From positions 1 through 23,656 of the IMG/VR virus record IMGVR_UViG_3300033141_000982: 23,656 bases of DNA. The stretch is one strand, 5' to 3'. The notes under the pieces were generated by a model. It made no database searches. It was not told where the DNA came from and saw only the letters and a list, made by a program, of their open reading frames with translations. Both the position numbers and the translations under genes were made by a program. Positions 5,504 to 19,329 of this stretch are shown in pieces. Each line of letters starts with the position of its first letter. Within the stretch, counting starts at the first letter, position 1. The DNA is from a virus.

Positions 5504-6256
5504 TTAATTACAAGTCAATGACGCCAAAGCCAATTTTTTAGGACGACTTTTCAGATATTGCAAAACATTCTTCTTTCCTGTCACCCCTCCGAATCTTGTA
5601 AGTGTGTTGCCTGTTCGGTGTTGCCTGTAAATGTAGATAGCCTCGGCAATCACTTTGAAGCGGCCTCCTGATAACTCCAAGGCGGGCCACATATAGGCTA
5701 CGTCTGTGCAGTTTTCGATCCATTTACCGTCAATCTGCAAGTCATCCAACTCCAGGTGGTTAATTAGTTCTAATCTGAATGTGTTGGGCGCTGTTGAGAT
5801 AAAAGTGTAGTTCCTATACGCACTTTTCTTTATTACGTCAGTTGGGAAGTAGGAAATCTGGTGTCTGGTTCCGCGCTCGTTCACCCAATTGCCATAAGTA
5901 AGAAATGTATTGTCGTCGTATGTGTTTGCTATTACTTCTAACGCATTTGGCCTCAGCAGGTCGTCCAGTCCTAAAAGGACAACTATAGCATGCTGAGGTT
6001 CACCGTCATTAAGGGCGTCGCGCATTGCGGTGTATCTACAATAGGTAGCGCCTTTGTTTTCTTCGATTCGATAGATTTCAAATCGGTTATCCTTCCCAAA
6101 AGGCTTAATAGCCTGATAAGTATCGTCGGTGCTTGCGTCGTCAAATACGTATGCTTTCCAGTTAGAATACGTCTGGTTTGAAAGGCTGTTTAGACACGCG
6201 TTAACGTAGCGGGCGCAATTCCATCCAGACACGATAACTATCACTCTATTGGGCAT
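5504..6256 (-). CDS. GT-A fold glycosyltransferase, family 2 type
   Basis: About 250 residues from ATG 6256, overlapping the end of the minor head gene by 11 bases. Family 2 enzymes transfer a sugar from a nucleotide-sugar to an acceptor. Seen here are the N-terminal beta strand and early helix (VIVIVSGWNCARYVNACLNS), the nucleotide-binding FDDASTDDT at residues 38-46, the metal-binding region LLGLDDLL around 94-101, and a late acceptor/base-like region (ENCTDVAYMWPALELSGG). The usual DxDD reads G-L-D-D, so the first aspartate is glycine while the DD pair is kept. No membrane segment is present, so it should be cytosolic. It sits inside a virion morphogenesis block, which suggests a virion protein or host surface glycan as target; that is inference. 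Confidence 0.75.
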   Translation of the reverse strand: MPNRVIVIVSGWNCARYVNACLNSLSNQTYSNWKAYVFDDASTDDTYQAIKPFGKDNRFEIYRIEENKGATYCRYTAMRDALNDGEPQHAIVVLLGLDDLLRPNALEVIANTYDDNTFLTYGNWVNERGTRHQISYFPTDVIKKSAYRNYTFISTAPNTFRLELINHLELDDLQIDGKWIENCTDVAYMWPALELSGGRFKVIAEAIYIYRQHRTGNTLTRFGGVTGKKNVLQYLKSRPKKLALASLTCN

Positions 6257-7142
6257 CACGGATTCTTTTTGGAACATTAGAACTAGGCACAGGCATCATA
6301 AGGTGGTTGCAGCGCCACCCCCCTCGGTATATTTGGAAGTTTGTTTTATTCGTCCCGCGCTTCATTCCTTCCGGTAGGCCCGTTGATGAGCTTCGCTTCA
6401 CCCGGACGTTACCGACGTGACCTTTTAGAAAGCCTGGGATTTCCGATTTATGAAACCACCTTTTCTTAACTAGAGCCTTACAAAATGGGCGGGAATCAGA
6501 AACCAACGAACCGACGTACTGATACCACTCTAGTCCTAAATTTGTAGCAACTGTGTCGTTGTAACTGGAAGAGTACATGTTTATTGAGTCAGTAGTGACA
6601 CGACCAACAAAAGAATCTAATGCGCCCACCGTGCTTTCTGTACCCGTGATATATCCCTTCAGTTGGGATTGAAGGTCTACAATGGTTGATCCTGACTTTA
6701 CGTTAGAGCTTAGTATTTGTCGAACGCCCTCTAGCACTTCAGTCTGCAACCCATCCTTAGCCATTAAAGAAACTGTATCCTCAATTGCGGTTTCTTGTAG
6801 CGCGTTCAAGGTTACCGGGATAGTAAAAGCCTCGATTGCAGATTGGAAGTAGGCCGTTTGCGTTTTGGTTACCAGATTAAAAGACTTTGCGAAGCCCTTT
6901 ACAAGATCACGGTAGCCTGTGTTCATTAATATTCGTTCAAACCTGCGGACAATTCGGTTTATCATCCGTATGTTTTTCGAACTGGCTCGAATCACGCCGT
7001 TTTTAATTTCAAGCTTGGCTAACTCATCCTGCAACTCAGAATAGGCCCTCCTTTGGATGGCTGGCGCAGCTGAGTTGGCATTCATTACCGAGCTATCTAG
7101 TATTTCCACCAGAGCGCCTAAAATTTCACTCGTCGTCGGCAT
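6246..7142 (-). CDS. minor head protein, phage head morphogenesis (Mu gpF-like)
   Basis: This 298-residue protein starts at ATG 7142 within the last codons of the portal gene (17-base overlap). Mu gpF-like proteins bind the portal and act in early capsid assembly or DNA ejection. The N-terminal two thirds is helical. The C-terminus carries the family-type pattern: YVGSLVSDSRPFCKAL near residues 209-224, followed by GGWRCNHLMMPV near 275-286, with conserved-looking Cys and His residues. Placement directly after the portal is the standard site for this gene, which together with the C-terminal motif makes the call fairly safe. Confidence 0.75.
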   Translation of the reverse strand: MPTTSEILGALVEILDSSVMNANSAAPAIQRRAYSELQDELAKLEIKNGVIRASSKNIRMINRIVRRFERILMNTGYRDLVKGFAKSFNLVTKTQTAYFQSAIEAFTIPVTLNALQETAIEDTVSLMAKDGLQTEVLEGVRQILSSNVKSGSTIVDLQSQLKGYITGTESTVGALDSFVGRVTTDSINMYSSSYNDTVATNLGLEWYQYVGSLVSDSRPFCKALVKKRWFHKSEIPGFLKGHVGNVRVKRSSSTGLPEGMKRGTNKTNFQIYRGGWRCNHLMMPVPSSNVPKRIRDAQ

Positions 7143-8931
7143 TTATCTCTACACGTTCGATTTCTGGAGCTTGAACAGGTTCAAGTTCCTTTAGTTTCTC
7201 TTCTAACATTGGCGTGATAAGTTTCATTTGTTCTTCTGGAGACTTCCGAAGGAATTGCGGCTCTAAAAGCTGGGCTTGCTCAATAAAATAAGGCAGGTAT
7301 GAGCTTAGAACTACATCCCGATTGCTAAGGCTTCCATTAAGCTCCAGCTCTACTATTTCAGTAGTAGACATGTTGTCAAAAGGGTTTAGCAATAAAGTGG
7401 TGTTCACACGTGCGCGTACTTCAGGTTGAGCAGCGTATCTCTTATCAGCGAGTTGCTTTTGCATTTCCCGTACAATGGACGGATCAACACCAGCTTTTTT
7501 AGCTTCTTCAATCTGCTTTACTAAGTCGTTTGACCCGTACACATCAAAGCGCTCCGGTATCGGCTGAATCGGCATTATTTCGAGCCTCTGATCTTCAGTT
7601 AGCTCCATTCCAAACATTAAGTCTACTATACGCTTAGTCGCTGGCTTGGCAATACAATTAACCACGTGGGTTGCAATACCTGTTAATGTAGTATGCACCG
7701 CGTCGTGATCGACTTCCTTTGCTTTTCCTGATTGGTTCAGTGGAGTTTCGTGCAGATGTTCAGCGTTTACAGCGGCAAGAGCGTCGTAAAGGTGGTCGTC
7801 GATGCGTGTAGTTTGCACCTTAACCATCTCTTTATCTTTCTCTATGTAACCTGCACCCGGTAGCGTAAACCCAGGGTCGGTATTTGAAGGCCGTGGAAAA
7901 GTTATGACTTGATACTGATTCATTGGAAGCGCTCCGGTCCCATTACAATCTTTACAGACTGCTTGTACACCGTTATCCCCTTCAGTCACCCATCCAGACC
8001 CATTACAAGTAGTGCAATCCTGACCTTCAACTGACCAAAATTGAGAGTGGACATGCAAAACTACCTCTGCTTGGTTGTCGGAATATTCACGTGCGGCCTC
8101 ATCGAGCTTTGGGGTCATTGGCTCAATAGGGGAAAAGTAAATCGGGCGGTTTTCGATCATCTTGTTATAATCGCCTCCCGGCATAAACCCAGGATTGTAA
8201 CCTAGTCCATGCGTAAACCTACGAATCACCTTGATTTCTGCTGTATATGGCAAATAGACGATCTCAATAAATTCGTCCTGGTCAATTAGCCAGAAAGGTT
8301 GTATTTTAACACTATTCCCTCCGCTATCCTGAACAACTACTGTGCTCGGAGCTTGGACTATTGTATTCTTTTCGTTTATGTCTACAACGTCGGAAGAAGG
8401 GATGATCGTAATACCTGGATTGAATCGGTCGGAAACCTCACCGCTGGGCCATAAATCAAGAACGATTATAGCACAATGCGGATCTTTCGCCCACCACTTA
8501 GTAGCTGTTCCAAATAGCCAATTATCAAACGACTTAAAGATTGGCACGCCGTTAACCATGTAGTCCTTCAAGACTTCAATGTCCTGGCGACGGGCCGTTG
8601 ATTTAGGTGTTGGGTATTGGGTTATCCAATCCTCAGCTCTAAGAATCTTTTGCCAAAAAGAAATAAATCGACCAACTGTCCCGGCGGTTATCGGCTTGTA
8701 GATTGACTTACGGTATTCAAAAGATGTTTCATCCTCCCCCGGACGACGCTCTCCAATCAGCAAATTGAAGTACCTGTTCTTTGGCTGTAGCCCCGAAGAA
8801 ACTTTAAACGGATCAAACCCATCTACGTGAAAGCGCAAAGAATCGTAATAGGCAACCTTGGCCGCTTGGCTCGGGTGGCGGATAATACCCTCTTTAGTAA
8901 AGTATGCGCGAATATCTTCGTTCGTAAACAT
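7126..8931 (-). CDS. portal protein with DnaJ-type Cys4 zinc-finger insertion
   Basis: This 601-residue protein starts at ATG 8931 in a TAATG overlap with the glycosyltransferase stop. Portals form the dodecameric DNA gate at one capsid vertex and the docking site for terminase and tail. Length, position immediately before a Mu gpF-like gene, a C-terminal half with long helices (DLVKQIEEAKKAGVDPSIVR, near residues 470-490) and an acidic tail support the call. At residues 306-333 two CxxCxGxG repeats occur (CTTCNGSG and CKDCNGTG, 12 residues between them), the spacing pattern of DnaJ-type zinc fingers. No J-domain is present, so the protein is not a DnaJ homologue. The finger may stabilise a portal subdomain or bind another assembly factor. 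Confidence 0.75.
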   Translation of the reverse strand: MFTNEDIRAYFTKEGIIRHPSQAAKVAYYDSLRFHVDGFDPFKVSSGLQPKNRYFNLLIGERRPGEDETSFEYRKSIYKPITAGTVGRFISFWQKILRAEDWITQYPTPKSTARRQDIEVLKDYMVNGVPIFKSFDNWLFGTATKWWAKDPHCAIIVLDLWPSGEVSDRFNPGITIIPSSDVVDINEKNTIVQAPSTVVVQDSGGNSVKIQPFWLIDQDEFIEIVYLPYTAEIKVIRRFTHGLGYNPGFMPGGDYNKMIENRPIYFSPIEPMTPKLDEAAREYSDNQAEVVLHVHSQFWSVEGQDCTTCNGSGWVTEGDNGVQAVCKDCNGTGALPMNQYQVITFPRPSNTDPGFTLPGAGYIEKDKEMVKVQTTRIDDHLYDALAAVNAEHLHETPLNQSGKAKEVDHDAVHTTLTGIATHVVNCIAKPATKRIVDLMFGMELTEDQRLEIMPIQPIPERFDVYGSNDLVKQIEEAKKAGVDPSIVREMQKQLADKRYAAQPEVRARVNTTLLLNPFDNMSTTEIVELELNGSLSNRDVVLSSYLPYFIEQAQLLEPQFLRKSPEEQMKLITPMLEEKLKELEPVQAPEIERVEINADDE

Positions 8932-9797
8932 TATACGGCTTGGCGTGTCGGGATAAAGTCCCTTTTGTTTTTAAGTAGTAGTGGGTACTCACCTGTACCC
9001 CGAAAAGCGTTCATAACGATGTCCCTGTACAGACTCTTTTGCTTGTGGCTTTGGACTTTTCCACCGAAGGAAACTCCTTCGAACCTGCGGAATAAATCAG
9101 GGCGACCAATGCCTCTGTTGGTTGCTTCCCAATAAATAGGTTGGTAGTTCTCAGAGTGGGGATATAAATTGGTTTGGGCCATGGCAATCGAAAAAGCAAG
9201 TTCGTCCGCAGTCATCTGTGCAATACGTAGTTTTTCGTTTACTCCGGGTTTATCATAAGCCTTTTGAGCCTTTCTGAATAGTTGACCTACCTCTTTACTT
9301 TTTTTAAACCAGATAAGCTCTGAGTGAAGCCTGTATAGCTTGGAATCAGGGTAAGCGCTGAAGAAATCCGAATCAGAAACCCAATCCGTATAAGCGTCGT
9401 TGCCGGTCGGACTAGTTATTGCGCCAGAATTCTTCATTGTGAAATCAACATCCGCAAGCGTGTCGAGAAAATCTGCGGCTTTCTTTTTCGGGTTCCATAG
9501 GATGTCAGCGTCTAAGAATAACGTCTCCTTAAAAGGAGAAAGCTGGTAGATGTGAGTTTTTGCCTTAAAGTATTTTGGAATGGTTGAATTCCCATCGTAA
9601 CACTTATCTGGAACCCGGATCAAGTTGCTAAACTCTGATTTCGCAATATCCGACAGGTGGGTAATTGCTGCTTCATCGTAAAGTAAAGCTATCGGTGTTT
9701 CAAGGTCATTTTTTCTAATTGACCGTAGTAGGTTGTACGCATATTGGCCGTAATAAGGGTGACCTAATGCTAATAGAAGTATTCCGCGTGTTTTCAT
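8931..9797 (-). CDS. GT-A type glycosyltransferase with DxD motif
   Basis: About 288 residues from ATG 9797, in a TAATG overlap with the stop of the preceding gene; an ATG two codons upstream (9803) is also possible. The N-terminus (GILLLALGHPYYGQYAYNLL) and the ETLFLDADILW segment, with the DAD triad at residues 96-98, are typical of nucleotide-sugar transferases of the family 8-like kind. Late features include ELIWFKKSKE and DELAFSIAMAQ, which resemble sugar-donor and acceptor regions. The C-terminus is basic. There is no membrane segment. The gene is squeezed between an unknown gene and the portal, so it is transcribed with the structural genes. Donor, acceptor and true family remain unresolved. 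Confidence 0.65.
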   Translation of the reverse strand: MKTRGILLLALGHPYYGQYAYNLLRSIRKNDLETPIALLYDEAAITHLSDIAKSEFSNLIRVPDKCYDGNSTIPKYFKAKTHIYQLSPFKETLFLDADILWNPKKKAADFLDTLADVDFTMKNSGAITSPTGNDAYTDWVSDSDFFSAYPDSKLYRLHSELIWFKKSKEVGQLFRKAQKAYDKPGVNEKLRIAQMTADELAFSIAMAQTNLYPHSENYQPIYWEATNRGIGRPDLFRRFEGVSFGGKVQSHKQKSLYRDIVMNAFRGTGEYPLLLKNKRDFIPTRQAV

Positions 9798-10525
9798 TAC
9801 CATTTGTATTCGTATTCGCCGTCGTGGCCTATCTTAATCACGTTTTCTATAATGTCGGCTTGATTGTAGCCGTTGATAGTCTTAACCGTGATGTGCGCAA
9901 ACCCAGGAACAGCATCCGAAGCGCCAAAACCATTATCACCTACAACCCAATTCAGAATCCCAGGTGTTGTATCGCCGTAGTTGATTCCTGCAATGCCATG
10001 CTCAATAAAGTGGTCTTGCAAGTCTGTGCCAGCTTGTTTGATTACGTCAAGAGTTCCGAGAACTGTTAATCGGTCGGCCTCATCTACGTTAGTTAGTATC
10101 CAAGCCTTCATGAGTGACCATCGATGTTTTCGACACTGGATAGACGCTTCGTTATAGTCGCTCATTCTCCTTTCAGCATCATCGTAAACCGATTTAACGC
10201 GAAGCTCAGAGCAAGCTTTATATGAGGCAATGATCTCTTTTGTCTCTTGGTCATACATATCCCAAACCACATCTTCTACTTGTCCATGCGGTTTAAGCTT
10301 GTCCCGAACCCATTTATAGTCTCGGTTGAGCATTTTTCGCTCTAAGTGCCAATGCTTAGGTTCGTTGATTTCTGTGTAGTCATTAGGGAGATCATCCCCA
10401 GCAATCATAAACGGGCGATCTCCGACTTCAGTTGTAGCGTATGAGTGGTTTAGCTCACTGATTTCAATGACACTCTTTAGCGTATTATCGCTTAGGTCTG
10501 TGAGTTTTAAAGCTCCTAATTTCAT
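9797..10525 (-). CDS. hypothetical protein upstream of the glycosyltransferase
   Basis: A 242-residue protein with ATG 10525 in a TAATG overlap with the preceding gene and a TAATG overlap with the next. The N-terminal region contains KHWHLERKMLNRDYKWVRDK, the centre is helical and charged (YDDAERRMSDYNEASIQCRK), and the C-terminal third is glycine- and asparagine-rich with alternating hydrophobic residues (GILNWVVGDNGFGASDAVPG). No signal peptide, membrane segment or catalytic motif is apparent. I do not recognise the family. Tight coupling on both sides ties it to the tail-appendage gene before it and the glycosyltransferase after it, so a tail accessory or a partner or substrate of that enzyme are both possible. 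Confidence 0.6.
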   Translation of the reverse strand: MKLGALKLTDLSDNTLKSVIEISELNHSYATTEVGDRPFMIAGDDLPNDYTEINEPKHWHLERKMLNRDYKWVRDKLKPHGQVEDVVWDMYDQETKEIIASYKACSELRVKSVYDDAERRMSDYNEASIQCRKHRWSLMKAWILTNVDEADRLTVLGTLDVIKQAGTDLQDHFIEHGIAGINYGDTTPGILNWVVGDNGFGASDAVPGFAHITVKTINGYNQADIIENVIKIGHDGEYEYKW

Positions 10526-12930: not shown

Positions 12931-13530
12931 ATGAAAACCATCCTAACCACAGTAACTGTGGCGATTCTTTTTGCTTGCTCAACAACGAATTCAGATGTTG
13001 GTCACGAGCCGGAACCTTTATGTGAGAATCCTTTTACTGAATCCGAAAGAGATTCAATAACTGAGGAGTTAAGTACGATTAGCGACGGAGACTTGGAAAT
13101 TAGTCGAGTTTACCGATCAACGGTCCTTCAAGGTGGGGTTAGCACGTATTGTCGAATCATTAGGGTGAAGGGTGAAGCTCCTACACTTGATATGTTTTGC
13201 TTGGTAAACGGGGATGAATATATGCGCCCGAAGTCATTTATCCTTGATAATAATGGTCAAAAGAGGCTTTTTGGCAAGGAACGGCAGCCAACGGTGACGC
13301 AGGATGTCACGGCGTCGGGCATGCATATCGAGGAGATATACACACCTGTAAATGTCGAGGATTTTGACTACCTAAGCAGTATTAGCATTGGCGATACAGT
13401 GCGTGTTGACGTACTTGGTGAAGGTCATAATGCAACCACGTTCCTGCATGGTGAGCGAATTGAAGGGATTGCCGCCTTGCTGCGGGCATATAACGCACTA
13501 GGTGGGTGCAGAGAAAATTTACCGGAATGA
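12931..13530 (+). CDS. predicted lipoprotein, moron-like cargo gene 1
   Basis: A 199-residue protein with an N-terminal lipoprotein signal peptide: MKTILTTVTVAIL followed by FAC, with cysteine 16 as the likely lipidation site. It is therefore predicted to be exported and membrane-anchored, unlike the phage assembly proteins around it. The mature part is acidic at its start (NSDVGHEPEPLCENPF), with further cysteines (SVYCRIIR-like and MFCLVNG) and a GGCRENLPE end. It is on the plus strand within a minus-strand block and overlaps the next lipoprotein gene by ATGA, so both form a coupled cassette. Function unknown. Lysogenic conversion or superinfection exclusion is an inference from location and export signal. 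No family recognised. Confidence 0.7.
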   Translation: MKTILTTVTVAILFACSTTNSDVGHEPEPLCENPFTESERDSITEELSTISDGDLEISRVYRSTVLQGGVSTYCRIIRVKGEAPTLDMFCLVNGDEYMRPKSFILDNNGQKRLFGKERQPTVTQDVTASGMHIEEIYTPVNVEDFDYLSSISIGDTVRVDVLGEGHNATTFLHGERIEGIAALLRAYNALGGCRENLPE

Positions 13531-13937
13531 AAAAACTTTCATTGATCTTAGTTGTGGCAATCATGTTTGCATCCTGCAAAAAGGATGATGAACCACAAAA
13601 CCAAACAGAAGAGCCACCAGTGGATTATTACGCTCAGTTTGTAGGGAGCTGGGATGTTCGATTCCTTGATAATTGCACATCAACACAATCAGTTCCCGAC
13701 GGCACCCAAGTTCAGGTTATTACCTTCAATGCGGATGGCACCGGAAACGTGTTAAGTAACGGCACCCAAAACGACCCATTCACCGTTTCGGCGACCGAAG
13801 CGCGCATAAGTGGTGATCTACTGTCTTTTAGTTACTGGGACTATTCATATTCAGGAGACACCCTAGTACTTGTTAGCTCGCCGATCGGTTGTAACGGCAC
13901 GCAGGGAAACTACATCCGAAAAGCTATCAAGCTATAG
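13527..13937 (+). CDS. predicted surface lipoprotein with lipocalin-like domain, moron-like cargo gene 2
   Basis: About 136 residues from ATG 13527, which overlaps the upstream stop as ATGA; a start seven codons earlier would lack a signal peptide start and is rejected. The signal peptide MKKLSLILVVAIMFASC ends at lipidated cysteine 17. It is followed by KKDDEPQ, matching the K-(D/E)2 surface export signal described for Bacteroidota lipoproteins, so surface display is predicted. The mature domain (FVGSWDVRFLDN, then VITFNADGTGNV, ending NYIRKAIKL) is of the small lipocalin-like beta-barrel type common in Bacteroidota lipoproteins. Its end overlaps the convergent tail-tip gene by six bases. 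Role in blocking or altering phage receptors is plausible but unproven. Confidence 0.7.
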   Translation: MKKLSLILVVAIMFASCKKDDEPQNQTEEPPVDYYAQFVGSWDVRFLDNCTSTQSVPDGTQVQVITFNADGTGNVLSNGTQNDPFTVSATEARISGDLLSFSYWDYSYSGDTLVLVSSPIGCNGTQGNYIRKAIKL

Positions 13938-15902
13938 CACTTTGCTGAACTCTTCCAGTGAAGTAACGTATTCGTGATCCGTTTCACCGGTAATTGCATT
14001 GGTTACGACTCGGCTAATCCAGCCTTTAACTGATCCTATTGGGTTCCCCTGCTGATCCCGCTTTATTATCTTAACGAAGCCTAGCGGTTTATTTGCAAGA
14101 AGGTTAAACTGCTCATCGCTCAAGGGGTGGGTAAAGTTCATACGGATATTAGTGAAGCTCGGCGGATCCGCAGGGTTTATGATTCCCCCGCTAGTTGCTG
14201 CTTGGATGATTTCGAAAGTAGCGCCGGACTTTAGTTGCCACTGAATGAATGGAGCGCCGCAACCCTCATCAGGTGGGCTAAAGAAGTTAGTGCTAAACAC
14301 AGCGTCGATAGTGTCTCCCGCGTTGCAGTAGATCGGGCTCAGGAACTCAGTTCGATAAAGACCAACACCGTTAAAAATCCCGAATTGTGTCTCGATGTTG
14401 TCGATTGGCGCTCCTCCAACCTTTCTAAAGATTTTCACATTGTACTTGATCCCTAAGTTGCAAGAGTCAAGTATCTCAAACGGCGTCACGATCCGCACGT
14501 AATACACCCCACTTTCAGGGCACGTGTATTCATTGGCTACCGTATCCCAATTATCGTTTGGGTCAAAGTTTGGAGGTGTAGAATCATCGTTGAATGGTAG
14601 AGGCGTTTCAATTACCACCGCACTACTCAATATAGGGCCATCCGCAGTGCGAGAGGCTTGCATTTCGTCGTTACCATCACCAAAGTTTGCCGCTATAGCC
14701 CCTCCTACATTCCATCGTTGTGCTACGTTGGTGTTAAGTAGTGCATTGTTGTAGATTACCGGAAGTGCCGCAGATGGGTTGATAACATTTGTCTGGGTGG
14801 CTGACCCTGGCCCCACAGTTGGGTCGTACTGAATAAAGAATACGTTGTCATCGTAATCGGTATCGCCATTTAGAGCCGCTATAATGGCCCCGTGATCTGT
14901 AGAGTAGTCGGTAGTAAGGTCCAATTTACTTTGCCCACCATTTACACCTTGGAGCACGTAAGACTCCCTAGTATGAGAAAGAAAAGGGATGTAGGGGAAT
15001 GAAGTAACGCCAACCGGGTCTTTTTCGTAGTCCTGTGATCCAATTTCTACCGCTGAGTAATTTAGGGAGCTTGCAATCTGGTTATCGTTCAGGTCGATCC
15101 CTTCTAATTGGGTGATTTGGTCAATGCGGGTGTTTTCGTCCTGTTCCAATCGTGCTTCAAACACTCCATCGCTGATTTCTACGAATTCTAACCATAGGTT
15201 ATACAGTCGTCCGATGGTCTTTAGCATTAGGTCGTAATTAACCAAAGGGTCGGTGTTTAGGGTCAGGGTTCGGATGTTTTGCCCGAGGGTTACAGCTATT
15301 CTCTCGTTATTGGGAAGACTGTTATACCAGTTACTAACAATCGGAACTGTACCACCCGTGTAGTAGTCTAGAATATCCTGCATTGCGTCCAGGAAGTCGA
15401 AAGAGTGGCAGTCATTGCCAAAGTATACTCCTGTATCAGGGTTAAAGAGTCTCAGCCCGAAAGCTTGCGCGGGTGTGTACTCGTTCCCGTTTATATCGAT
15501 CCCTGAGCCGATGTAGATATTAGTATCTGGTGAGTCGTTGATATACTGACCGTAAACGGAGATATTAAGAGCGTTGGTTTGGGCTGTTCTTCTCGTTATG
15601 TCCCAGATAGTACGGTTTAGAATGATGGTTCCTGACACAAACGTGATGAAGTTCTCACCTTGCAGCCTTCTCTTTACTCGGAACGTCACCAGTTGGGAAG
15701 GGTCTTCTTTGTACTTCTCAGCCAACAAAGTGTAAGCATCAGCATAGAAAGTTACATCTGCATCCGCTTCAATACGAATTCTACGCCCTTCAATGTCTCG
15801 CGCAATTGTCTTCTCCAGCGACTCTTCCCCGAATGGGTTAGTAACTACTGTCCCGGTCGGGTTTTGGTCATTCTCATCAAGTATCCACTGTAATTCTGGC
15901 AT
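13932..15902 (-). CDS. tail-tip / baseplate protein with C1q-like jelly-roll segment
   Basis: This 656-residue protein starts at ATG 15902 in a TAATG overlap with the end of the tape-measure gene, the classic position of the distal tail or baseplate hub. The N-terminal part (ESLEKTIARDIEGRRIRIEA) and middle look like a beta-rich tail-tip scaffold. Around residues 430-560 a segment reads DPNDNWDTVANEYTCPESGV then YYVRIVT, with a later CNAGDTIDAVFSTNF; this matches the layout of C1q/TNF-like adhesion jelly rolls. A C-terminal helical and charged part (SDEQFNLLANKPLGFVKIIK) follows. It probably combines tail-tip assembly with surface binding. The stop sits in the palindrome CTATAG shared with the convergent lipoprotein gene. 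Confidence 0.6.
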   Translation of the reverse strand: MPELQWILDENDQNPTGTVVTNPFGEESLEKTIARDIEGRRIRIEADADVTFYADAYTLLAEKYKEDPSQLVTFRVKRRLQGENFITFVSGTIILNRTIWDITRRTAQTNALNISVYGQYINDSPDTNIYIGSGIDINGNEYTPAQAFGLRLFNPDTGVYFGNDCHSFDFLDAMQDILDYYTGGTVPIVSNWYNSLPNNERIAVTLGQNIRTLTLNTDPLVNYDLMLKTIGRLYNLWLEFVEISDGVFEARLEQDENTRIDQITQLEGIDLNDNQIASSLNYSAVEIGSQDYEKDPVGVTSFPYIPFLSHTRESYVLQGVNGGQSKLDLTTDYSTDHGAIIAALNGDTDYDDNVFFIQYDPTVGPGSATQTNVINPSAALPVIYNNALLNTNVAQRWNVGGAIAANFGDGNDEMQASRTADGPILSSAVVIETPLPFNDDSTPPNFDPNDNWDTVANEYTCPESGVYYVRIVTPFEILDSCNLGIKYNVKIFRKVGGAPIDNIETQFGIFNGVGLYRTEFLSPIYCNAGDTIDAVFSTNFFSPPDEGCGAPFIQWQLKSGATFEIIQAATSGGIINPADPPSFTNIRMNFTHPLSDEQFNLLANKPLGFVKIIKRDQQGNPIGSVKGWISRVVTNAITGETDHEYVTSLEEFSKVL

Positions 15903-18322
15903 TACGCGATGTTTTTACTACGTGTATCAGGTGATTGAAGGCGGTTTAAGGCTTTGAGCTGGGCCATTACGCCCTGGCGGTACTCTTTGGTGAACTCTGA
16001 GCCGGTCAGGCCGTCGTCTTTCAACTCGTTGGCGATTTCACGCGCCAAACTTCCTTGTGTCATTTCTGACTTAGCCTTCATGGCTTCTATGTAATTGCGT
16101 TCGGCTAAATCACGCTCATAAGGGGAGGAAGTGTACTGACGGTGGAATTCCATAGCGTTATGATCGAAAAACGGCTCTGATCCACTCATAATCGCCTTTG
16201 TTTCCTTCGCTGTATGAACCTTAGCGCCTTTAGGTAGATTCACAAGCTCTGGCCCCTCTTCACCTACTAGCGAAAGCCCTCCAGGAGCGCTATCTGTACC
16301 TTTTGCAAATTGAGGAATTGGTGTAGCTGCAATAATCCCTAACTGAGTGGCTACTGTTGCGATAGTGATCGGCAGAATGAATGGACGACCCGCAGCGGCG
16401 GCAATCTGAGCGGCACCATTTATACCGGCTTCAAATAACGCCAGCGCTTTATCTCGTTCGGCTTGTTTACGCTGGGCCTCTGCGATCTGCTTTTCTTTCA
16501 GGGCCTCCGAGGCTGCAATTTCATCTGCAATTTTCTGGCGCTCTTGCTCTGTGGTAATTTCAGTTTCTAATCGTCGTTCAAGGGCTGCTTGGTTTTCGTC
16601 CTCGCGGTTTGTGATTCGCTCAATGTCTCGCTCTGTATTTACAGCGGATAGCTCATTAAGGCGTCCAAAGATTTCAGCGGCGGCGTTAGCAAATTCGAAG
16701 ATGATTTCCAGCCGCCTTGCGTTACGGGCCTTCTCGGACTCCTCGTCCATTTTTCGAAGTTCTTCCTTCTTATCGAAGATTTGCGTTTCAACGTCAACCG
16801 TGTCTTGCCCTGCCTTTTCTTGTAGTTTCTTCTTTTCCTCCAGGTAGAATATCTCAGACTCAAGGTCAAGACGGCGTCGTTCGTCTGCTTCGTCTGTAAT
16901 GCGTCGATTACTCAGGTTGTCAAGCTTTAATTGGTCGGCTAAAACCCGCTCTTTACCCTTTAATTCAAGTTGAGCTAGTTTTTGACGCGCCTTAGTTAAT
17001 TCACCTTCGACCTTAATGGTTTCCTCACCGGCAGCCTCTAACAGAATCTTTTCACCTTCTAAGCGTTGAATTAGAACCCTCTGAAGTTCGAGTGTAAGCG
17101 CTTCGGCATCGGAAATTGACTGCTGTGCTTCTAGTTTTGCTATTTCCTGACTTTGCTTTAAGCCTTGAAGATTGAATTTCAGATTTATTTCCTCTTCTTT
17201 TTTTCTAGACTCTTCTGTGAGTTTAGCTTGTAGTTCCGACGTTTCAGCTTCGGACGCTTCAAGTTCAGCCAGTTTTCTCTTTAGAATCAGGCGCTCGGCT
17301 TCAATTTCTCTTTCCCGATCATCCTCCAAAGCTCGGATTTTAGCATCCTCAAGTTCCTTCGCGAATTTTAACTCATCCGCTACGCGTTGTTTTGCGCGGC
17401 GTTCGGCATCAGCGCGGGCCTTTTTGGCGCGTTTCTCTGCCTCTGCGGCTGCTTCTCGCTCTAATCTGGCTCTTTCTGCTAACTCCGCCTGAAGGGCTTC
17501 GTTGATACCCTCAGAGGTTCCCTTTGCGATTGAAATAAGGGTGTCCGAGTTAATAGCTTGTAAGCGCTCAATTTCCTCCAAAAATGCTTTTTGACCTTCA
17601 ATTCTCAAGGCCAGCTCCGCACGCTCCAATCCTATTGTCGTCTCAATCCGGCTTTCCAGGTCAGCTATTAATTCTCGTGAGGTGTTTTTTTGCGTATCAA
17701 TTTCCTGTTTGCTGAGATCGATAGCTCTGGACGCTCTTTCTTGCCCTGCTTCTACGACCAAAGCTGTAGCATCGTTTATTTGCTTGATAATTTGAGTCCC
17801 GGCACCCTCCCCGCCCGACAGAAAGGATTCGATACTTGCGCCAATTGCGAGAAATGTTTTATCGTTTTCGTTGAGCAGGGTCGTGTTAAACTCATTGGTT
17901 TGCTCTAGGGCCTCAGCTACGCCAGCTTTATAATTTTCCCATCCAATTACAGATTGGGAAATAACCCCATCGCCATCAGCAATGCTTTGCTTTAAGTTTT
18001 CAGTCGCATTGTTAAAGCGTAGCTCTGCTGCCTGAACCCCATCAAGGGTCGTTTCCAGCTCTTCGAGGTTCAGATTTATGTCGTCGATAGTAGTCAGAAA
18101 CTCTAAACCTGCATCCTCACCGGCACCACCGAAAATATCTGCAATAGCCGCGCCTACTTCTGCCGACTGAGGCGGTAACTCATCTAGTTTGCCCCCGATC
18201 TCCTGAATAATCTCAAAGGCTGTCTTTTCACCTGATTTAAGCTGTTTTTCGATCTCCTCACCAGAAAGGCCAATCCCTTCCAGGGCTTCACGTGTTGCAG
18301 GCGCGAACTCTCGCAGTCTCAA
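15902..18322 (-). CDS. tape measure protein, C-terminal fragment (gene split by frameshifting duplication)
   Basis: An open frame of 806 residues in the second half of the tape-measure gene. The coordinate start is a TTG (18322); the true coding sequence continues upstream to 18410 and into the duplicated segment. It is a long charged coiled coil (for example RAKKARADAERRAKQRVADE), then a hydrophobic stretch (GINGAAQIAAAAGRPF, ILPITIATVATQLGIIAA) and FAKGTDSAPGGLSLVGEEGP, a sequence very typical of tape-measure C-termini. Tape-measure proteins fill the tail tube and set its length. With the duplication collapsed the complete protein is 1125 residues, which at the usual 0.15 nm per residue predicts a tail near 170 nm. 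As given, translation would stop at 18451. Confidence 0.85.
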   Translation of the reverse strand: MRLREFAPATREALEGIGLSGEEIEKQLKSGEKTAFEIIQEIGGKLDELPPQSAEVGAAIADIFGGAGEDAGLEFLTTIDDINLNLEELETTLDGVQAAELRFNNATENLKQSIADGDGVISQSVIGWENYKAGVAEALEQTNEFNTTLLNENDKTFLAIGASIESFLSGGEGAGTQIIKQINDATALVVEAGQERASRAIDLSKQEIDTQKNTSRELIADLESRIETTIGLERAELALRIEGQKAFLEEIERLQAINSDTLISIAKGTSEGINEALQAELAERARLEREAAAEAEKRAKKARADAERRAKQRVADELKFAKELEDAKIRALEDDREREIEAERLILKRKLAELEASEAETSELQAKLTEESRKKEEEINLKFNLQGLKQSQEIAKLEAQQSISDAEALTLELQRVLIQRLEGEKILLEAAGEETIKVEGELTKARQKLAQLELKGKERVLADQLKLDNLSNRRITDEADERRRLDLESEIFYLEEKKKLQEKAGQDTVDVETQIFDKKEELRKMDEESEKARNARRLEIIFEFANAAAEIFGRLNELSAVNTERDIERITNREDENQAALERRLETEITTEQERQKIADEIAASEALKEKQIAEAQRKQAERDKALALFEAGINGAAQIAAAAGRPFILPITIATVATQLGIIAATPIPQFAKGTDSAPGGLSLVGEEGPELVNLPKGAKVHTAKETKAIMSGSEPFFDHNAMEFHRQYTSSPYERDLAERNYIEAMKAKSEMTQGSLAREIANELKDDGLTGSEFTKEYRQGVMAQLKALNRLQSPDTRSKNIA

Positions 18323-18410
18323 AAGCCCTTCTTTGATCGTGTCAATGCCTTTATCTGAGAATAGTCCTGATTGGTTAGACTGAGTAATAAAGGCAATGAA
18401 CTTGTCTGCA

Positions 18411-18510
18411 TCTGGACCGGCTGCTGCTTTAAACTGAGCAGGATACTCTTTCAGGATCTCTCTGGACCGGCTGCTGCTTTAAACTGAGCAGGATACTCTT
18501 TCAGGATCTC
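18411..18510. repeat. exact 50-bp tandem duplication inside the tape-measure gene
   Basis: Positions 18411-18460 and 18461-18510 are identical over all 50 bases, head to tail with no spacer. Fifty is not a multiple of three, so the reading frame shifts and meets a stop at 18451-18453. Deleting one copy joins AAAGP to DADKF and restores one continuous frame from 19329 to 15902 (1126 codons including stop). Possible causes are a recent slippage duplication or an assembly artefact at a read or k-mer boundary. Confidence 0.97.
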
Positions 18511-19329
18511 TAAATATTCACCGTTGACGTTAGCCCCTTTTTCAAATCCTTCTGACACCAATTCCGCCGCTTCCGTACCGGTGATGCCGTATTGTTTAGC
18601 CAGCGCGTTAGTTGCCAGTAGGACTTCGTTAAAGTCTTCATCAAAGGTTTTTGCTATAGCCCGTATCCGGGGGGCTAATTCGTTCGCATCCTCACCGCTA
18701 AAAAGAGTTTCGACCTGGCGTGTGGTTTCGGTTACTTCTTTCTGGACATCCAAAAGGGCTTCGACACCCTCCGCTGCAAAAGCTGTAATTGCTACCGCTG
18801 CACCAATTGCCGGAACTGCCTTCAGCGTACTTAGTAAACCATCGAATTGGTCAGTTAGGCTTTCGATCCCCTCGTTGCCCTCTTCTTCGATCCCTTCAAG
18901 TTCCTTTTTGAACTCCTCCAGCTCATCAGTGGTGCTATCTATCTCTTTTCCAAGCTTTCGGTATACGGCAGGATCAGTAGCGTCTTTCTGGGCCTTTTTC
19001 AGGGATTGTATCCGCTTTTCCAGCGAGTTGATGGATTTAGCCTCTTTAGCAACCTCTTGTGTGGTGTCCGCAACAGCTTCCTCGACTTGCTTCTCACTTC
19101 TAATCCTTTGCTCGGCGGCTTGTCCAATAGCAAGCATTGCCTTTTCTTGGCGCTGGAGGTTGGCTACTACGTTCTTTTCTGCTACTGAGCTAGAAGAGGT
19201 GATCCGCTTAAACTGGTTAGCGATTTCTTCTGTAACAAGATTAACCTTTACCAATGCATCGATGATGTCATCAATAGCACCGGTGTCTTTCTGAAATTTA
19301 AGCCTTACGACTTGTACTGAATCTGCCAC
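18451..19329 (-). CDS. tape measure protein, N-terminal fragment
   Basis: This 292-residue open frame starts at GTG 19329; a TGA lies in frame two codons upstream and the ATG at 19336 is out of frame, so GTG is the best start. The sequence is charged and helical (for example KSINSLEKRIQSLKKAQKDA), with a hydrophobic GAAVAITAFAAEGVEALL stretch near residue 180, both typical of tape-measure N-terminal regions. It ends in KEYPAQFKAAAGP followed by four out-of-frame codons created by the duplication, so its last residues are not native. It follows the tail-assembly-chaperone gene, the standard place. As written it would be a truncated tape measure that cannot build a normal tail. Confidence 0.85.
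   Translation of the reverse strand: MADSVQVVRLKFQKDTGAIDDIIDALVKVNLVTEEIANQFKRITSSSSVAEKNVVANLQRQEKAMLAIGQAAEQRIRSEKQVEEAVADTTQEVAKEAKSINSLEKRIQSLKKAQKDATDPAVYRKLGKEIDSTTDELEEFKKELEGIEEEGNEGIESLTDQFDGLLSTLKAVPAIGAAVAITAFAAEGVEALLDVQKEVTETTRQVETLFSGEDANELAPRIRAIAKTFDEDFNEVLLATNALAKQYGITGTEAAELVSEGFEKGANVNGEYLEILKEYPAQFKAAAGPERS

Follow-up and report, generated by a model that had tools for sequence, protein, structure and literature searches.

The window analysed here is a stretch of 23,656 nucleotides, positions 1–23,656 of the linear record IMGVR_UViG_3300033141_000982 from an uncultivated virus. Open reading frames tile the window and its genes are intact, except at a 50-base duplication in the gene for the tape-measure protein; no frame break was seen elsewhere in the 23.7 kb. 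Apart from one glycosyltransferase, the recognised genes in the fragment have packaging, head and tail functions only, and neither an integrase nor a host flank was recognised within the window. The features relevant to the analysis are the following:

5504–6277 and 8931–9803, minus strand: one of the two is a family 2 glycosyltransferase, identified by a domain match, among the head and portal genes
5504–6277 and 8931–9803, minus strand: the other of the two is a second protein among the head and portal genes, glycosyltransferase-like by eye and without a PHROG match
12931–13530 and 13506–13937, plus strand: a pair of small overlapping genes, oriented opposite to the other genes of the module
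15902–18409, minus strand: C-terminal piece of the tape-measure gene, 835 codons with no internal stop
18411–18460, minus strand: 50-base unit, the copy lying downstream in the reading direction of the gene, which encodes EILKEYPAQFKAAAGP in the frame of the C-terminal piece
18461–18510, minus strand: identical 50-base unit, the copy lying upstream in the reading direction of the gene, which encodes the same residues (EILKEYPAQFKAAAGP) in the frame of the N-terminal piece
18451–19329, minus strand: N-terminal piece of the tape-measure gene, with a GTG start at 19329 and 292 codons, followed by a frame-shift TGA

Both of the small plus-strand genes begin with a lipoprotein-like signal sequence, in which a hydrophobic stretch is followed by a cysteine; neither has a Pfam match, and they possibly encode surface lipoproteins expressed by a lysogen. 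The portal-like protein (gene 7126–8931) carries motifs of the CxxCxGxG type (CTTCNGSG...CKDCNGTG, at 7930–8016 on the minus strand). This stretch resembles the zinc-finger domain of DnaJ, with a weak match below the Pfam cut-off, and is unusual for a portal protein.

The two 50-base copies do not differ at any position, and the period-50 match extends from 18411 to 18511, i.e., two full copies and one further base in an array of 101 bases. The junction between the copies thus shares a single base of overlap. No other exact repeat of at least 18 bases, direct or inverted, is present in the whole window. The unit length, 50 (48 + 2), is not the multiple of three expected of a natural coding array, and the upstream frame ends at a TGA (18451–18453) after the residues ...KAAAGPERS, seven bases into the copy at 18411–18460. 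The downstream frame is open from inside the duplication to 15902 (835 codons counted from 18409). The first-pass annotation of this DNA had described an exact 50-bp tandem duplication at 18411–18510 that shifts the frame and creates a stop at 18451, and this description is confirmed in each respect. Its length of 1125 residues for the protein restored by removing one copy also agrees with the pieces, which contribute 287 residues (to A287), three residues in one unit copy, and 835 residues. To judge from its reading frames, the gene in its recorded form is expected to yield a fragment of 292 residues, and no functional tape measure. The stretch around KEYPA, which the unit encodes, is conserved, so the lesion strikes a conserved part of the protein. 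Inside each copy there is a run of GCT on the plus strand (18419–18430 and 18469–18480) that corresponds to alanine codons on the gene strand.

The identity of the gene was assessed with the two pieces searched separately. The N-terminal piece matches positions 199–325 of PHROG 37298 (2.7e-22) and the C-terminal piece positions 329–488 (3.2e-29), so that the two spans are nearly contiguous and in the right order. PHROG 37298 has no named function, but PHROGs named as tape measure match each piece, on the C-terminal piece with a match near the C-terminal end. With tblastn, both pieces adjoin in a single annotated tape-measure gene of Bacteroides phage BKO1-3 (PQ571267) and of Elizabethkingia phage TCUEAP2 (OK632025), and they share a frame in MT835637, a fecal phage record that carries no annotation. 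The genes of these three phages are homologous on both sides of the lesion, with 47–50% identity before it and 47–57% after it; unlike the gene in the window, their frames are unbroken and without duplication. The order of upstream gene, tape measure and large downstream gene is that of BKO1-3 and TCUEAP2, both of which have a tail-assembly or virion gene directly upstream of the tape-measure gene, and the gene in the window is likewise located between tail-assembly and distal tail genes. The profile matches and the tblastn results thus uphold the original assignment as a tape-measure gene. Because the tape-measure pieces match these three phages, the virus is probably of a kind found with Bacteroidota hosts.

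A larger set of relatives was drawn with an alignment of the C-terminal side including BKO1-3, TCUEAP2 and MT835637, and comprises 80 viral contigs together with 27 from bacterial genomes. The latter include isolates of Bacteroides, Dysgonomonas, Tenacibaculum and Adhaeribacter, and since relatives of the gene occur in contigs of bacterial genomes, its kin include prophages. A single tape-measure piece or the terminase as query gave no useful relatives, the phage collection contains no close relatives at the DNA level, and no viral contig carries a match to a 31-base piece of the 50-base unit, although records very close to the window may be absent from the sets searched. Both flanks of the lesion could be placed in 111 loci from phage records, viral contigs and bacterial-genome contigs or prophages. 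In every one of these the flanks share a frame that no stop interrupts, and none has a duplication at this site, which supports a single copy as the ancestral state. In 110 of the 111 loci the conserved flanks are separated by exactly one residue fewer than a single unit copy gives here, and in the remaining one by three more. The GCT run adjoins the point where the gene has this one residue more than the 110 relatives, and a minor in-frame slip that predates the duplication may account for the extra residue.

For comparison, exact tandem arrays with a unit of at least 40 bases were surveyed in 521 other viral contigs with a total length of 5.10 Mb. Seven arrays were found, with units of 48, 51, 57, 66, 72, 81 and 81 bases, although the number of independent arrays is nearer five or six since a relationship between some of the contigs is possible (the same unit occurs in L137 and L192). 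All seven unit lengths are divisible by three, as would be anticipated for genuine arrays that selection maintains, and the 50-base unit deviates from this pattern. No array in the survey breaks a frame, which places frame-breaking arrays of such size below about 0.6 per Mb (95% Poisson bound for zero in 5.1 Mb), a bound to be read with the caveat that the window was chosen for having such an array. Because the window holds no other exact repeat of at least 18 bases, and the 5.1 Mb hold no other frame-breaking array, chance can be excluded as the origin of the repeat. The absence of a second case also means that artefacts of this kind must be rare in the viral-contig collection, and the survey alone neither supports nor excludes an origin of the duplication in the making of the record.

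Further candidates were rejected. Joining of the ends of a circular genome does not apply, as the window ends have no exact repeat of at least 18 bases in common. A hairpin-driven event is not indicated, as the site folds no better than shuffled sequence (z 0.51), and the terminator-like stems within each copy belong to coding sequence of the other strand.

It is very highly probable that the duplication is a one-off lesion without function, whether it is an artefact or a real mutation. The first-pass annotation had named these two alternatives, a wrong assembly or a recent mutation, and they are the right ones to weigh. Our estimates for these two origins are judgements and not computed values. 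We give about an even chance to an origin in the assembly or the library, where two sequence pieces overlapping by 50 bases would have been joined without collapsing the overlap or, by an alternative route, a chimeric library molecule would have been assembled; the tape-measure gene of the actual phage would then be unbroken, as it is in every relative. The near-contiguous matches of both pieces to one profile, the nature of the record (linear, from an uncultivated virus), the identical flank spacing in 110 of 111 relatives, and the absence of a stop or duplication in any of them all favour this origin, as do the otherwise intact genes of the window, the position of the lesion in a gene that a tailed phage needs, and a unit length that departs from those of all seven survey arrays. 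The identity of the copies and their one-base junction point the same way, as slippage mutations usually use several shared bases. On the other hand, a de Bruijn graph assembler by itself makes no junction that is absent from the reads, so that a faulty join or a chimeric molecule is needed, and the survey offers no second case. Published work leans towards an error: in a survey of frame transitions in prokaryotic genomes, isolated cases with full-length homologues are expected to be mostly sequence errors, an expectation that mainly concerns small indels and not 50-base duplications (PMC3711429). The lesion resembles these singletons, i.e., single frameshifted genes with full-length homologues, in being an isolated break in a conserved gene with intact homologues, but differs from them in its cause, an exact 50-base duplication instead of a small indel.

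A real and recent tandem duplication, made by template switching or slippage in replication and truncating the tape measure after 292 residues, is an appreciable possibility that falls somewhat short of even. The carrier would be either a prophage that is defective or a virus genome present as a minority, tailless unless reverted or complemented, and the knock-out would probably have taken place in a prophage. Short tandem duplications belong to the ordinary spontaneous mutations, the identity of the copies suits an event in the very recent past, and lesions of this type can persist in prophages such as those among the kin of the gene; the faulty join or chimeric molecules that an assembly origin demands also count in favour of a real event. 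Against it stand the single base of microhomology, the lack of a recognised integrase or host flank in the window, the restriction of damage to this one site in 23.7 kb of otherwise intact genes, and the fact that none of the 111 relatives shares the duplication.

That the duplication is real but tolerated, with ribosomes shifting frame by −1 or reinitiating so that a functional protein is made either with an insertion or as two pieces, is very unlikely. The offset of 48 + 2 would need a −1 shift, which is the commonest kind of programmed frameshift, but the two frames overlap over few codons and no slippery heptamer (X XXY YYZ) is in phase within the usable overlap. Reinitiation is opposed by the first ATG, GTG or TTG codon of the downstream frame, a TTG at 18322 that lies past the segment FSDKGIDTIKE conserved in relatives; no ATG or GTG that could serve as a rescue start was found near the lesion, and no relative among the 111 has the gene split here. 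Equally hard to sustain, and in our view extremely improbable, is the suggestion in the first-pass annotation of an on/off switch of virion assembly, by which the two-copy state would leave a fraction of the phages or prophages in a population without tails and contraction to a single copy would turn assembly on. Perfect direct repeats can indeed contract, and phase-variable tandem-repeat genes likewise have an exact tandem repeat at the frame break. However, here there are only two copies of a large unit, joined over one base and accompanied by no hairpin beyond that of shuffled sequence and no sign of a programmed element at the site, and the gene is not one for a surface or modification function. 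None of the 111 relatives has a repeat at the same position, whether conserved or with a differing copy number. Under published criteria, a phase-variation cluster needs several homologous genes that show a frame transition, as well as members with a prior link to phase variation (PMC3711429), whereas the present case is single. The titles and opening lines of abstracts in the literature provide nothing direct on a described artefact or switch of such kind.

The original observation is thus correct and nothing out of the ordinary: in one record, a one-off exact duplication disrupts the tape-measure gene. If the duplication is real, the virus would be an ordinary inactivated prophage or virus genome, and wider interest would arise only if a reversible change in copy number were demonstrated. 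For the records of uncultivated viruses the case is mainly a warning that an essential gene may seem broken or absent on account of a single exact duplication, which becomes apparent immediately when relatives are compared.
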